NCBI RefSeq assembly: GCF_005844325.1
Contig: NZ_SPFY01000002.1
Coordinates: 62,001-126,000 of the forward strand
Direction: 5' to 3'
DNA: 64,000 nt
Source of the DNA: Collinsella aerofaciens
GTDB taxonomy: Bacteria > Actinomycetota > Coriobacteriia > Coriobacteriales > Coriobacteriaceae
Shown here: one piece after another, positions 41,734 through 59,246 of the stretch
How the letters are laid out: every line of letters begins with the position of its first letter
Numbering within the stretch: the stretch's first letter is position 1
Notes under the pieces: model-generated
Seen by the model: the letters and a program-made list of their open reading frames with translations, nothing else
The model's database searches: none
Told to the model about the DNA's origin: nothing
Position numbers and translations under genes: made by a program

Positions 41734-43335
41734 ATGCAAAAGCAAATCCATGACAGTTCAATCAACCGCGGCCGCGCATGCTCGCTCTCCCACGGAACGT
41801 GGCGTCGCGTGGGCGCCAAGCTCGCCTGTGCAGGGGCCTGCGTGCTCATGGCCGGTCAGCTGCTACTGCCGAGTGTGGCGCTCGCCGCCGAGTGGGTCAA
41901 CGTGGGCGGCACGCAGTACAACAGGGGCACGGCCGCCGGCGACGAGGCGGGAACCTGGTCCTGGGACGGTGGCGACGACATGAAGCTCAACGGCTACGAC
42001 GGCGCCGGCATCAGTGCTCAGGGCAACCTCAATATCGGCGTGACGGGCAATAACACCATCACGGCCGATGCCGGTCAGAACGCTATTGCTGTTAAAAACG
42101 GCAACCTCGCCATTACCGGCGACGGCACCCTTAATGCGACGGCTCAGAACGATGTTATTGCGGCGGAAGGCGACGGCAATGTCGGCGGCGATGTGACCAT
42201 CAGCGGCACCAGCGTCAACGTGACGGCTTCGGGTACATCGGATCATGTGACGGGCATTCGCGCGACGGCCGGCAGCGTGACGATCGATAAGGGCGCCGAT
42301 GTCAAAATCGAGGCGAAATCGGCGGAAGGATCTTGGCGTCCAATGCAGAGCATCTACGGTATCTTTGCCGATAACATTCCCAACAGACACACTGCTCAGG
42401 AAGGCGAGCAGGAAGAGCCGGATTCCTCTTACGAGCGCGGTGCCGATGTCACCATCGATGACGCCAATCTGTCGATTAAGACTGCCGATGCCCCGTGGGC
42501 TTCCGCGTGCATTTATACGGTCGGTATCAAGAAGAATACCTTCATGAAAATCGTTAACGGAGCCGATGTCGTGCTTTCCGCCGGTAGTGCGGCCTCGTTC
42601 TCGGCGGGCATCGGCGCACGCTCGCAAGACGGTGCGGTGTGGATGCTTGTCGAGAAGTCGAATCTTACGTCTCGAAGTCTATCTGCCGCAAGCAGCATCG
42701 ATGCCGCCCGCAATCAAAGTTTTGGAATCATGGCAGAGGCAAACACCAGGTCGGAAACGCCTCGTATCCAGATTTTCAACTCGAAGATCGAGGCTTCGGG
42801 TGCGACTGCGGGAATCTATGCGATCAACCGCAACGTCGTGAATGCGACACTGTTCCATGCCGCGATGATTGATTTGCGAGGAAATGCGACGATTACGACT
42901 CCGACGGATGGTGCCGTTCGCGATGTGAAAAAGGTTGTCGATACAGGGCAATGGCTGAGTTCCCAGAACGGGCAGGTCATCGGTGTTGCCGGTTCGTCTG
43001 CGATTTCGGATATCGTCGGTTCTGCCGAGGTTGCCCATGATGTGGTGATTAATTTTGGGGACGGGCAGGAGCCGGAACCAGCGCCGGACCCCGAGCCGAC
43101 TCCGGACCCCGATCCCATGCCCAATCCCGAGCAGAAGCCTGACCTCAAGCCCGTAGATAAGGACGCAAAGACCACCATGACCGTTGCGACCAAGACTGCT
43201 GCCGGCGCCAAAAGCGCTTCCGGTGTTCTGGCCGCCACGGGCGACAACGCCGCGACGGCCGCAGCCGCCCTTGGTATCGCCGGTGCGTCCGTCATTGGCG
43301 CCGGCTTCGTCGCGTCCAAGCGCCGCAAGCGCTAG
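41734..43335 (+). CDS. Sortase-anchored surface protein with beta-helix-like repeats
   Basis: A 533-residue secreted protein. The signal peptide (basic start, then CAGACVLMAGQLLLPSVALA) precedes a repetitive beta-rich region (GNLNIGVTGNNTITADAGQN, GNLAITGDGTLNATAQND) typical of right-handed beta-helix or carbohydrate-binding surface proteins. A Pro/Glu/Asp repeat linker (PEPAPDPEPTPDPDPMPNPE) spans the wall. The sorting signal is LAATGDNAA (from residue 499), followed by a hydrophobic helix and SKRRKR. AAGGAGG precedes the ATG. The ligand is not known. It is divergent from a LuxR gene and followed by the first phased repeat array. Confidence 0.85.
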   Translation: MQKQIHDSSINRGRACSLSHGTWRRVGAKLACAGACVLMAGQLLLPSVALAAEWVNVGGTQYNRGTAAGDEAGTWSWDGGDDMKLNGYDGAGISAQGNLNIGVTGNNTITADAGQNAIAVKNGNLAITGDGTLNATAQNDVIAAEGDGNVGGDVTISGTSVNVTASGTSDHVTGIRATAGSVTIDKGADVKIEAKSAEGSWRPMQSIYGIFADNIPNRHTAQEGEQEEPDSSYERGADVTIDDANLSIKTADAPWASACIYTVGIKKNTFMKIVNGADVVLSAGSAASFSAGIGARSQDGAVWMLVEKSNLTSRSLSAASSIDAARNQSFGIMAEANTRSETPRIQIFNSKIEASGATAGIYAINRNVVNATLFHAAMIDLRGNATITTPTDGAVRDVKKVVDTGQWLSSQNGQVIGVAGSSAISDIVGSAEVAHDVVINFGDGQEPEPAPDPEPTPDPDPMPNPEQKPDLKPVDKDAKTTMTVATKTAAGAKSASGVLAATGDNAATAAAALGIAGASVIGAGFVASKRRKR

Positions 43336-43372
43336 ATTTTGGTGGCTGCCCTCGGCCTCGTCCTCAGCAAAA

Positions 43373-43669
43373 TCTCAATCTATAACACGTAGCTGCTCAA
43401 AACGGTCCTAGATGTTACAGATTGAGATGAACCGTCTGACTGCCAACCTAATGTCTCGATCTGTAACACCAAACGAGTAATTTGGGTTCCAGATGTTACA
43501 GATTGAGACAAGCTGGCGAGTGTCGGAACAACGTCTCGATCTGTAACACGTGGCGGGAGATTTGGCCTCTTACTGTTATAGATCAAGATGAACGGGCGAA
43601 GCGCCGACATAATGTCTCGATCTGTAACATCTACGGGGATCAGCAGGGTCTACCTGTTACAGATCGAGA
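43373..43669. repeat. Phased array of alternating inverted repeats, array 1 (4 units)
   Basis: Left arms of consensus tctcgatctgtaaca lie at 43373, 43454, 43534 and 43615; right arms of consensus tgttacagatygaga at 43413, 43494, 43574 and 43655. Every arm is 15 nt. Starts follow each other at 40 or 41 bases, so orientation alternates with constant phase. The 25-nt stretches inside units and the 25-26-nt linkers differ from each other. It lies between convergent genes. It resembles BIME-type REP clusters rather than CRISPR. Confidence 0.9.
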
Positions 43670-43689
43670 CAAAACGGTCGGCCGAGTCT

Positions 43690-43729
43690 AAAACCACCAC
43701 AAAGGTGCCTGTCCCCTTTGTGGTGGTTT
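43690..43729. terminator. GGGACAG-box hairpin, copy E (inverted copy of D)
   Basis: Aaaaccaccacaaagg pairs with cctttgtggtggttt, with loop tgcctgtcc. It equals the reverse complement of 40390-40428. Copies D and E thus bracket the luxR and surface-protein genes in inverted orientation. Confidence 0.85.
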
Positions 43730-43810: not shown

Positions 43811-45220
43811 TTACTCGCCCAGCAGGCTCTTGGTGATGGAAGCGGCGGCCTTCTTGCCGGCGCCCATCGCCAGAATGACCGTAGCGGCACCGGTGACGAT
43901 GTCGCCGCCGGCCCAGATGCGAGGATCGGTGGTCTGGCCGGTCTCCTCGTCGGCGACGATGTAGCCCCACTTGTTGAGCTCCATCTTGCCGCCGATCTTG
44001 GCGGCGAAGGGGTTGGCGTTGGTGCCGATAGCCGAGATCGCGACGTCGCAGGGGATCTCCTCGATGGCGCCCTCGATGGCAACCGGACGACGGCGGCCGG
44101 ACTCGTCGGGCTCGCCGAGCTCCATCTTCTGGACCTTGACGGCGCACACGGTGCCGTCCTCGCCAGCGACAAACTCGAGCGGGGAGACGAGCGGCAGAAC
44201 CTCGACGCCCTCGGCCTTGGCGTGATGCAGCTCGGCGCGACGGCAGGGCATCTCGTCCTCGGTACGGCGGTAGGCGATGATGGCGTGCTCGGCGCCCAGG
44301 CGCTTGGCGGTACGGACGGCGTCCATAGCCACGTTGCCGCCACCAAAGACGACGACGTTCTTGCCGTGCTTGGTGGGGGTGTCGTACTCGGGGAACTTGT
44401 TGGCCTTCATCAGGTTCACGCGGGTGAGGTACTCGTTTGCGAAGAAGACGTTGGGCAGGTTCTCGCCGGGGACGTTGAGGAACTTGGGCAGGCCAGCGCC
44501 GGTCGCCACGTAGATGGCGTCGAAGCCCTGCTCGAACAGCTCCTCGGCCGTGGCCATGTTGCCCACGACGGAGTTGTACTCAAACTTGACGCCCATGTCC
44601 TCCAAGCCGTCAATCTCGCGCTTGACGACTGCCTTGGGCAGACGGAACTCGGGGATGCCGTAGACCAGCACGCCGCCACCGGTGAAGAATGCCTCGAAGA
44701 CGGTAACGTCAAAGCCGTTACGGGCGAGCTCGCCGGCGCAGGTGATGCCGGACGGGCCGGAGCCGACGACGGCGACCTTCTTGCCGTTCTTGGGGGCCAT
44801 CTTGGGCGTGGAGGCGAGTTCGGGGCGGTCACCCAGGAAGCGCTCGAGCTGGCCGATGGCCACGGGCTCGGACTTCTTACCACGGATGCACTTGCCCTCG
44901 CACTGGTTCTCCTGCGGGCAGACGCGGCCGCAGATGGCGGGAAGCATGGAGTCCTCGCGGATGGTATCGAGAGCGCCGCCGAAGTCCTTCGCGCGGATCT
45001 GCTCGATAAAGCGGGGAATGTTGATGTTGACGGGGCAGCCCTCAACACAGAACGGCTTCTTGCAGTTGAGGCAGCGCTCGGCCTCGGCCAGCGCCATCTC
45101 CTCGGTGAAGCCCTTGTCGACGGGGCGGAAGTCGCAGGCGCGCTCGGCAGCCGGCTCCTCGTTATCGGGGGTGCGGGGCGACTTCATATCGGCAACGAAA
45201 CGACCGTTAACTAGTGGCAT
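43811..45220 (-). CDS. nfnB: NfnB/GltD-type FAD and iron-sulfur oxidoreductase
   Basis: A 469-residue subunit homologous to the glutamate synthase small chain. The N-terminal ferredoxin-like domain has two Cys clusters (CLNCKKPFCVEGCPVNINIP and CGRVCPQENQCEGKC). FAD binding is at VVGSGPSGITCAGELA and NADPH binding at VVFGGGNVAMDAVRTAKRLG. Paired with the adjacent NfnA it should form NADH-dependent reduced ferredoxin:NADP oxidoreductase, an electron-bifurcating enzyme of anaerobes. A role as a GltD subunit is less likely because no GltB gene is present and the partner is of the NfnA type. It overlaps nfnA by 10 bases. Confidence 0.88.
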   Translation of the reverse strand: MPLVNGRFVADMKSPRTPDNEEPAAERACDFRPVDKGFTEEMALAEAERCLNCKKPFCVEGCPVNINIPRFIEQIRAKDFGGALDTIREDSMLPAICGRVCPQENQCEGKCIRGKKSEPVAIGQLERFLGDRPELASTPKMAPKNGKKVAVVGSGPSGITCAGELARNGFDVTVFEAFFTGGGVLVYGIPEFRLPKAVVKREIDGLEDMGVKFEYNSVVGNMATAEELFEQGFDAIYVATGAGLPKFLNVPGENLPNVFFANEYLTRVNLMKANKFPEYDTPTKHGKNVVVFGGGNVAMDAVRTAKRLGAEHAIIAYRRTEDEMPCRRAELHHAKAEGVEVLPLVSPLEFVAGEDGTVCAVKVQKMELGEPDESGRRRPVAIEGAIEEIPCDVAISAIGTNANPFAAKIGGKMELNKWGYIVADEETGQTTDPRIWAGGDIVTGAATVILAMGAGKKAAASITKSLLGE

Positions 45221-58717: not shown

Positions 58718-58794
58718 TGCGGGGTGGAGCAGTCTGGTAGCTCGCCGGGCTCATAACCCGGAGGTCGTAGGTTCAAATCCTGCCCCCGCGACCA
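58718..58794 (+). tRNA. Initiator tRNA-fMet (CAU)
   Basis: A 77-base cloverleaf with encoded CCA end. The acceptor tgcgggg pairs with ccccgcg with a weak T-G first pair, the anticodon arm is ccggg-ctcataa-cccgg with CAT, and the T-loop is TTCAAAT. The three consecutive G-C pairs below the anticodon loop and the weak 1-72 pair mark it as initiator rather than elongator. Confidence 0.95.
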
Positions 58795-58828: not shown

Positions 58829-58883
58829 TTTTTGTTATTTCGGGACCGTGTTTTCGGTCCAATTCTCGGCCTCTCAAACAAAA

Positions 58884-59099
58884 TCTCGATCTGTAACATC
58901 TAGACCCGATTTGGGCGGCTAGGTGTTACAGACCGAGATATACCGGTGGGTTGGGTCGTGTTTGTCTAAATCTGTAACACGAGGGACGGATTTTGCCGAG
59001 TTGTTGTTATAGATTGAGATTTTCTAGCAGGCGGGTTTGGTTTGTCTCGATCTGTAACAGTAAGACCCGGTTTTGCCGCGTAACTGTTACAGATTGAGA
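58884..59099. repeat. Phased array of alternating inverted repeats, array 2 (3 units)
   Basis: Left arms (tctcgatctgtaaca type) start at 58884, 58965 and 59045; right arms (tgttacagattgaga type) at 58924, 59005 and 59085. Spacing is again 40-41 bases throughout. Units two and three share a gattttgccg-type centre. The arms equal those of array 1 at 43373. It lies between the tRNA terminator and the enoate-reductase-family gene. Confidence 0.9.
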
Positions 59100-59246
59100 T
59101 AAACCGACGGGCCGCCCCGCCCATCCCCATCCACCTGCTGCCACCTGATATTCGCCGATTTCCGTTGCGCTGTTGTATTCCCATGCCATATCCTCTAGAT
59201 AACTACGCGGCATCATCGCCGCCGCGCCTACAAGAGAGGAATGTCC

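Follow-up and report, generated by a model that had tools for sequence, protein, structure and literature searches.

Repeats between bacterial genes tend to be interpreted as hairpins or as debris of selfish elements. In Neisseria, short inverted repeats of the NIME/dRS3 type bound variable intergenic segments, and Noc-binding sites, matS and SlmA sites are single short palindromes. REPs form hairpins and are characterised by a GT(A/G)G head, a GC-rich imperfect palindrome and complementary mutations, and the corresponding RAYT is flanked by inverted cognate repeats (PMC2817692). The Staphylococcus aureus repeat (STAR) consists of direct repeats of T(G/A/T)TGTTG(G/T)GGCCC(C/A) in one orientation. 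Copies of its conserved 14-bp motif are set apart by variable spacers whose length is nearly constant (40-44 bp at the gapR locus); STAR elements occupy stable intergenic loci, change in copy number and conserve their spacers within lineages, and their function is not known (PMC3532100).

The arrays described here were found in a window of Collinsella aerofaciens DNA (the whole analysed stretch of 64,000 nucleotides). They are not REP/BIME elements, and STAR repeats are their nearest published analogue. Like STAR, they are intergenic and stable in position but not in copy number, and they pair a short conserved motif with spacers that vary in sequence, keep a nearly constant length and are conserved within lineages. 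However, STAR has one orientation with a start signature and no dyad symmetry, whereas the arrays have a different motif, strict alternation, exact spacing and a dyad pattern in their fillers. With BIMEs and REPs they share alternation, regular spacing, extragenic position, a copy number of ~100 per genome and clade specificity, but their motif (TCTCRATCTGTAACA) has neither head nor palindrome, no complementary mutations are found, and the own genome contains no motif-flanked RAYT, which speaks against the REP/BIME-type origin that the original prediction had considered possible. The overall layout of the arrays resembles that of STAR elements and their alternation that of BIMEs, but defining features of both are missing. 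Neisseria NIME/dRS3 elements are likewise intergenic, with short inverted repeats around variable segments, but their fillers are longer, variable in length and without fixed phase. As with the Noc, matS and SlmA sites (for the Noc context, see PMC4331003), each chromosome has some tens of conserved sites for a protein that recognises a specific sequence (putative in the case of the arrays), and the weak origin bias of the arrays recalls such scattered chromosome-organisation sites; unlike these single palindromes, the arrays are phased dyads. No paper naming these alternating arrays was found in the literature, and motif 10-mers gave unrelated papers only, among the matches listed.

Array 1 consists of eight motif copies (starts 43373, 43413, 43454, 43494, 43534, 43574, 43615 and 43655) with the orientations + - + - + - + -, start-to-start distances of 40/41/40/40/40/41/40 bp and 0-2 mismatches each to TCTCGATCTGTAACA. 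The motif search of the window thereby reproduced exactly the eight strictly alternating 15-nt copies that had been noticed by reading the sequence. With up to 3 mismatches, the window contains 14 matches (0.88 expected; maximum 3 in 100 shuffles), i.e., the 8 of array 1 and 6 at 58884-59099 (array 2, three units). The dyad modules are listed below; their positions follow from the motif copies, and their extent of 63 bp was set from the A/T profile.

43369..43431, array 1 dyad module 1: forward copy 43373-43387, reverse copy 43413-43427, dyad centre 43400 (63 bp = centre +/-31)
43450..43512, array 1 dyad module 2: forward copy 43454-43468, reverse copy 43494-43508, centre 43481
43530..43592, array 1 dyad module 3: forward copy 43534-43548, reverse copy 43574-43588, centre 43561
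43611..43673, array 1 dyad module 4: forward copy 43615-43629, reverse copy 43655-43669, centre 43642
58880..58942, array 2 dyad module 1: motif copies 58884-58898 (forward) and 58924-58938 (reverse)
58961..59023, array 2 dyad module 2: motif copies 58965-58979 (forward) and 59005-59019 (reverse)
59041..59103, array 2 dyad module 3: motif copies 59045-59059 (forward) and 59085-59099 (reverse)

Unit architecture and its conservation

The distance from a forward copy to the following reverse copy is 40 in 396 of 402 pairs, whereas the reverse-to-forward distance is looser (40 in 153, 41 in 105 and 39 in 7 cases). Furthermore, 154 of 158 distinct arrays start with a forward and finish with a reverse copy. 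The unit is therefore the forward-reverse dyad, and the repeated object is a 55-bp dyad with short outer parts. The 25-nt segments between the copies had been described as variable; their sequence does vary, but they are not free, as the two kinds of interval differ and the composition is position-specific (NNTAG...A/T-tract...CTANN). The motif is followed by NNTAG, then by a G+C block and by three A/T at the dyad centre; in most units this centre is a run of a single base, either A or T, with A-runs about as frequent as T-runs, i.e., strand-symmetric. The outer side of the motif carries R, then three A/T. A/T maxima are found at 0, +/-10, +/-21 and +/-31 bp from the dyad, with a power peak at a period of 10-10.5 bp, and beyond 32 bp the A/T fraction is back to background, even outside terminal units; we therefore define a 63-bp module that is repeated every 80 or 81 bp. 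Note that motif position 5 alternates between G and A (TCTCGATC/TCTCAATC) much more often than the other motif positions in all arrays, which could reflect tolerance or mutation at CG.

In orthologous pairs (which are not independent of one another), substitutions per site amount to 0.138 in the fillers of the forward-reverse pairs, 0.135 in the flanks (151 flank comparisons, too diverged for alignment, were omitted) and 0.022 in the motif, which substitutes 6 times more slowly than the fillers. For indels the picture is different: 0.34 per kb in these fillers (indels beyond about 6 bp being excluded by design), 5.8 in the reverse-to-forward linkers and 19.3 in the flanks, so that the fillers have about 57 times fewer indels than flanking DNA at an equal substitution rate. 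This supports the selection on spacing with variable fillers that the original prediction had proposed; copies with random spacing or orientation are absent within the clade. Between non-orthologous units, fillers are only about 41% identical, i.e., their length is kept and their sequence is not, although the filler TA(G) and the centre WWW change less than the remaining filler positions. The number of units varies freely, and orthologous arrays have gained, lost or swapped units with breakpoints at the motif. Some members of the clade lack the array 1 locus, and single arrays are therefore dispensable.

Distribution and genomic context

The whole genome contains 117 motif copies at up to 2 mismatches (59 forward, 58 reverse), and the reversed pattern, used as a control with the same threshold, gave 0 forward and 1 reverse. 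The good matches sit in ~20 arrays; the few isolated copies have 2 mismatches each. Isolated perfect copies, as a possible autoregulatory site marking the partner gene, were not seen, so this gave no lead. With one mismatch allowed, genomes of the C. aerofaciens clade possess about 50-125 copies each and other Collinsella 0-3, with none in the sister genome G026. Across 23 genomes from the order's other families the paired motif is absent, and a scan of named genomes returned, among the matches listed, Collinsella records only, mostly C. aerofaciens. The array family is confined to the C. aerofaciens clade, apart from these 0-3 copies in other Collinsella. Three array-free Collinsella were also searched de novo, over 360-400 kb each, for phased alternating arrays built on different motifs, and this revealed ordinary palindromes only. 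Within the clade, 169 arrays group into 23 conserved orthologous loci, and the family is therefore not actively moving. Phage records gave no match to the arrays. One IMG/VR contig was matched; its array belongs to the host DNA and adjoins a prophage integrase, the prophage with its tyrosine integrase gene starting directly next to the array (L224, 908-2289). Among plasmid records, one 900-kb C. aerofaciens replicon was matched at 27 places and is probably chromosomal.

Four Collinsella outside the clade possess one stray array each. The array of G013 is intact and adjoins a tRNA, with a flank nearly identical to that of array 2 of the window (near 1501-1760 of L231, the tRNA flank and one dyad are nearly identical), which suggests a transfer of DNA that once lay beside that tRNA. 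In G029 and G032, the gene downstream of the array matches the clpB of the clade in its N-terminus (in L227 from G032 and L232 from G029, positions 1421-1800, the clpB start and the upstream region are close to the clade, decayed dyad included); judged by this resemblance, a horizontal replacement of clpB is likely. The stray array of G022 is found in a fragment. Alterations are seen in the copies of G022, G029 and G032 (35-bp spacing, a lost reverse copy, changes at positions near-invariant in the clade), which hints at a clade-specific partner that would maintain the arrays, although these copies are too few for more. The stray copies of the four distant Collinsella did not lead to a partner gene; they could be traced to the flank of the tRNA and array 2, to the region upstream of clpB and to a fragment.

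All 171 arrays examined with a simple gene caller lie between predicted genes, and none overlaps a predicted gene. By the orientation of neighbours, 7 loci are convergent, 6 tandem and 4 divergent. Of the arrays, 45% are convergent, but this share is inflated by orthologue counting; per locus, the convergent enrichment is weak (7/17, P 0.045). In the complete genome G060, the loci are somewhat nearer to dnaA than expected by chance (P 0.033), a weak and post hoc result. Several arrays can be found within 20 kb around gltB (L036 (C21) and G014:C1:1036000-1053000), and a cluster of three arrays with ~5-kb spacing flanks repeated genes for beta-glucosidase and LacI-type regulators (L044).

Candidate binding modules for a putative DNA-bending protein

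In these arrays motif and spacing are conserved, fillers drift, the A/T pattern is symmetric with a period of ~10 bp, and the loci are kept in the clade. We infer from this a putative protein, its cooperative binding and a role for the arrays. On balance, we favour a reading in which the arrays would be ~63-bp docking modules, set in 80-bp lattices, for a putative dimeric DNA-bending protein. Each forward-25-reverse pair would be one two-fold-symmetric binding module of ~63 bp, and a sequence-specific dimeric (or tetrameric) protein would read the duplex DNA and bend or wrap it. Each subunit would read one 15-bp motif together with the adjoining TAG, and would depend on the narrow minor groove of the A/T stretches at the dyad and immediately beyond the motif. 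With modules every 80 or 81 bp, bound dimers could form a phased nucleoprotein lattice between genes. The evolutionary patterns support the binding module well; cooperativity along the lattice is suggested less firmly than the dyad, because the reverse-to-forward spacing is looser. The arrays may serve as chromosome-organising elements or as boundary elements of transcription units. A clade-unique chromosome-organising system, in which the protein would wrap pre-phased 63-bp modules at ~20 sites per chromosome and so create fixed boundaries of transcription units, is conceivable and remains speculative. Spacing that is conserved while the sequence in between drifts at the rate of the flanks would be the evolutionary footprint of a protein lattice. 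The host is a very common gut bacterium, and the 63-bp unit is defined to the base, which makes it a test case for whether bacteria use pre-phased arrays for chromosome organisation.

The original prediction had left two options for the regular phase, a protein on a regular lattice or the folding of each unit into an RNA or DNA hairpin. The former fits the data. According to the latter, forward and reverse copies would pair in transcripts of either strand, or as cruciforms, to stabilise mRNA 3' ends or to end transcription between genes. The 15-bp arms, the very stable predicted fold (z -10) and the intergenic position, often close behind genes, agree with this, but the strong RNA fold has to be discounted, because inverted repeats give such folds anyway. 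In fact, stem position 4 is mismatched in 38 of 117 units, with matched pairs not above shuffles (P 0.675), stem position 5 can be either A or G (compensation P 0.096), and filler positions 1/25, 8/18, 9/17, 10/16 and 12/14 pair less than in shuffles. Missing stem compensation and anti-complementary fillers argue against a selected hairpin and for a protein that reads duplex DNA. Furthermore, a hairpin needs neither an exact 25-nt loop nor a fixed 25-26-nt linker, and the arrays gave no Rfam match at the gathering score and no covariation; we regard selected hairpins as unlikely.

That a RAYT (Y1_Tnp) transposase spread the arrays as elements of the REP/BIME type is quite improbable. Alternation, regular spacing and an intergenic position are features of BIMEs as well (PMC2817692), and Y1_Tnp genes occur in Collinsella genomes; however, these genes are also present in many array-free genomes, both RAYT-like (Y1_Tnp) loci of the own genome lack an exact motif copy, the array positions are fixed, and the repeats show, besides the missing head and complementary mutations, no GC-rich palindrome of their own. 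MITEs and IS ends are terminal inverted repeats found at changing places in the chromosome and accompanied by target duplications; the positions of the arrays are fixed at 23 loci. Equally improbable is a neutral origin, in which a mobile element that has since vanished left the arrays behind after a burst and gene conversion has kept them alike: clade-wide loci would suit one early spread followed by freezing, and some units are similar across loci, but conversion would homogenise the fillers too, whereas only motif and length are kept, and the WWW and TAG positions of the fillers are constrained. The gain, loss and swapping of units with breakpoints at the motif might recall a site-specific recombination array with the motif as recombinase site and the fillers as exchangeable or invertible cassettes. 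Yet filler inversions among orthologues number 0 versus 478 same-orientation pairs, the 25-bp fillers encode nothing obvious, and ordinary recombination between copies explains the loss of units, which makes such a system very improbable. A CRISPR array was rejected, as orientation alternates and the fillers share a common pattern, in contrast to same-orientation repeats with foreign spacers.

Surroundings of arrays 1 and 2

The features next to the two arrays are the following (genes are from the list of open reading frames and were named from sequence).

41734..43335, + strand: array 1 flanking gene, secreted or cell-surface-like protein
43690..43729, no strand: near-perfect palindrome AAAACCACCACAAAGGTGCCTGTCCCCTTTGTGGTGGTTT, beside array 1 and outside it
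43811..45220, - strand: array 1 flanking gene, oxidoreductase resembling the glutamate synthase small subunit (gltD-like), which served as orthology anchor
58718..58791, + strand: tRNA upstream of array 2 (Rfam RF00005)

Array 2 is present in 22 of 22 clade genomes with intact flank, with one to six dyads each. Close relatives differ in the presence of array 1 and often, along with it, of the surface-protein gene, which is convergent with the next gene and encodes a C-terminal hydrophobic stretch and an RRKR tail. The palindrome at 43690-43729 is retained in relatives without array 1 and is probably a REP-like terminator. This palindrome, ACCACCACAAAGG-TGCCTGTCCCC-CTTTGTGGTGGT, also found in most of the loci L174-L197, is repeated at gene ends and often paired around inserted genes; the orientation of its core differs between close relatives. 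Three states are seen downstream of gltD in close relatives, with the surface-protein gene present, missing, or missing with array 1 kept (L175, L178, L180, L185 and L193 compared with L183 and L186-L190), i.e., the slot of this gene, bounded by two hairpin repeats, is polymorphic.
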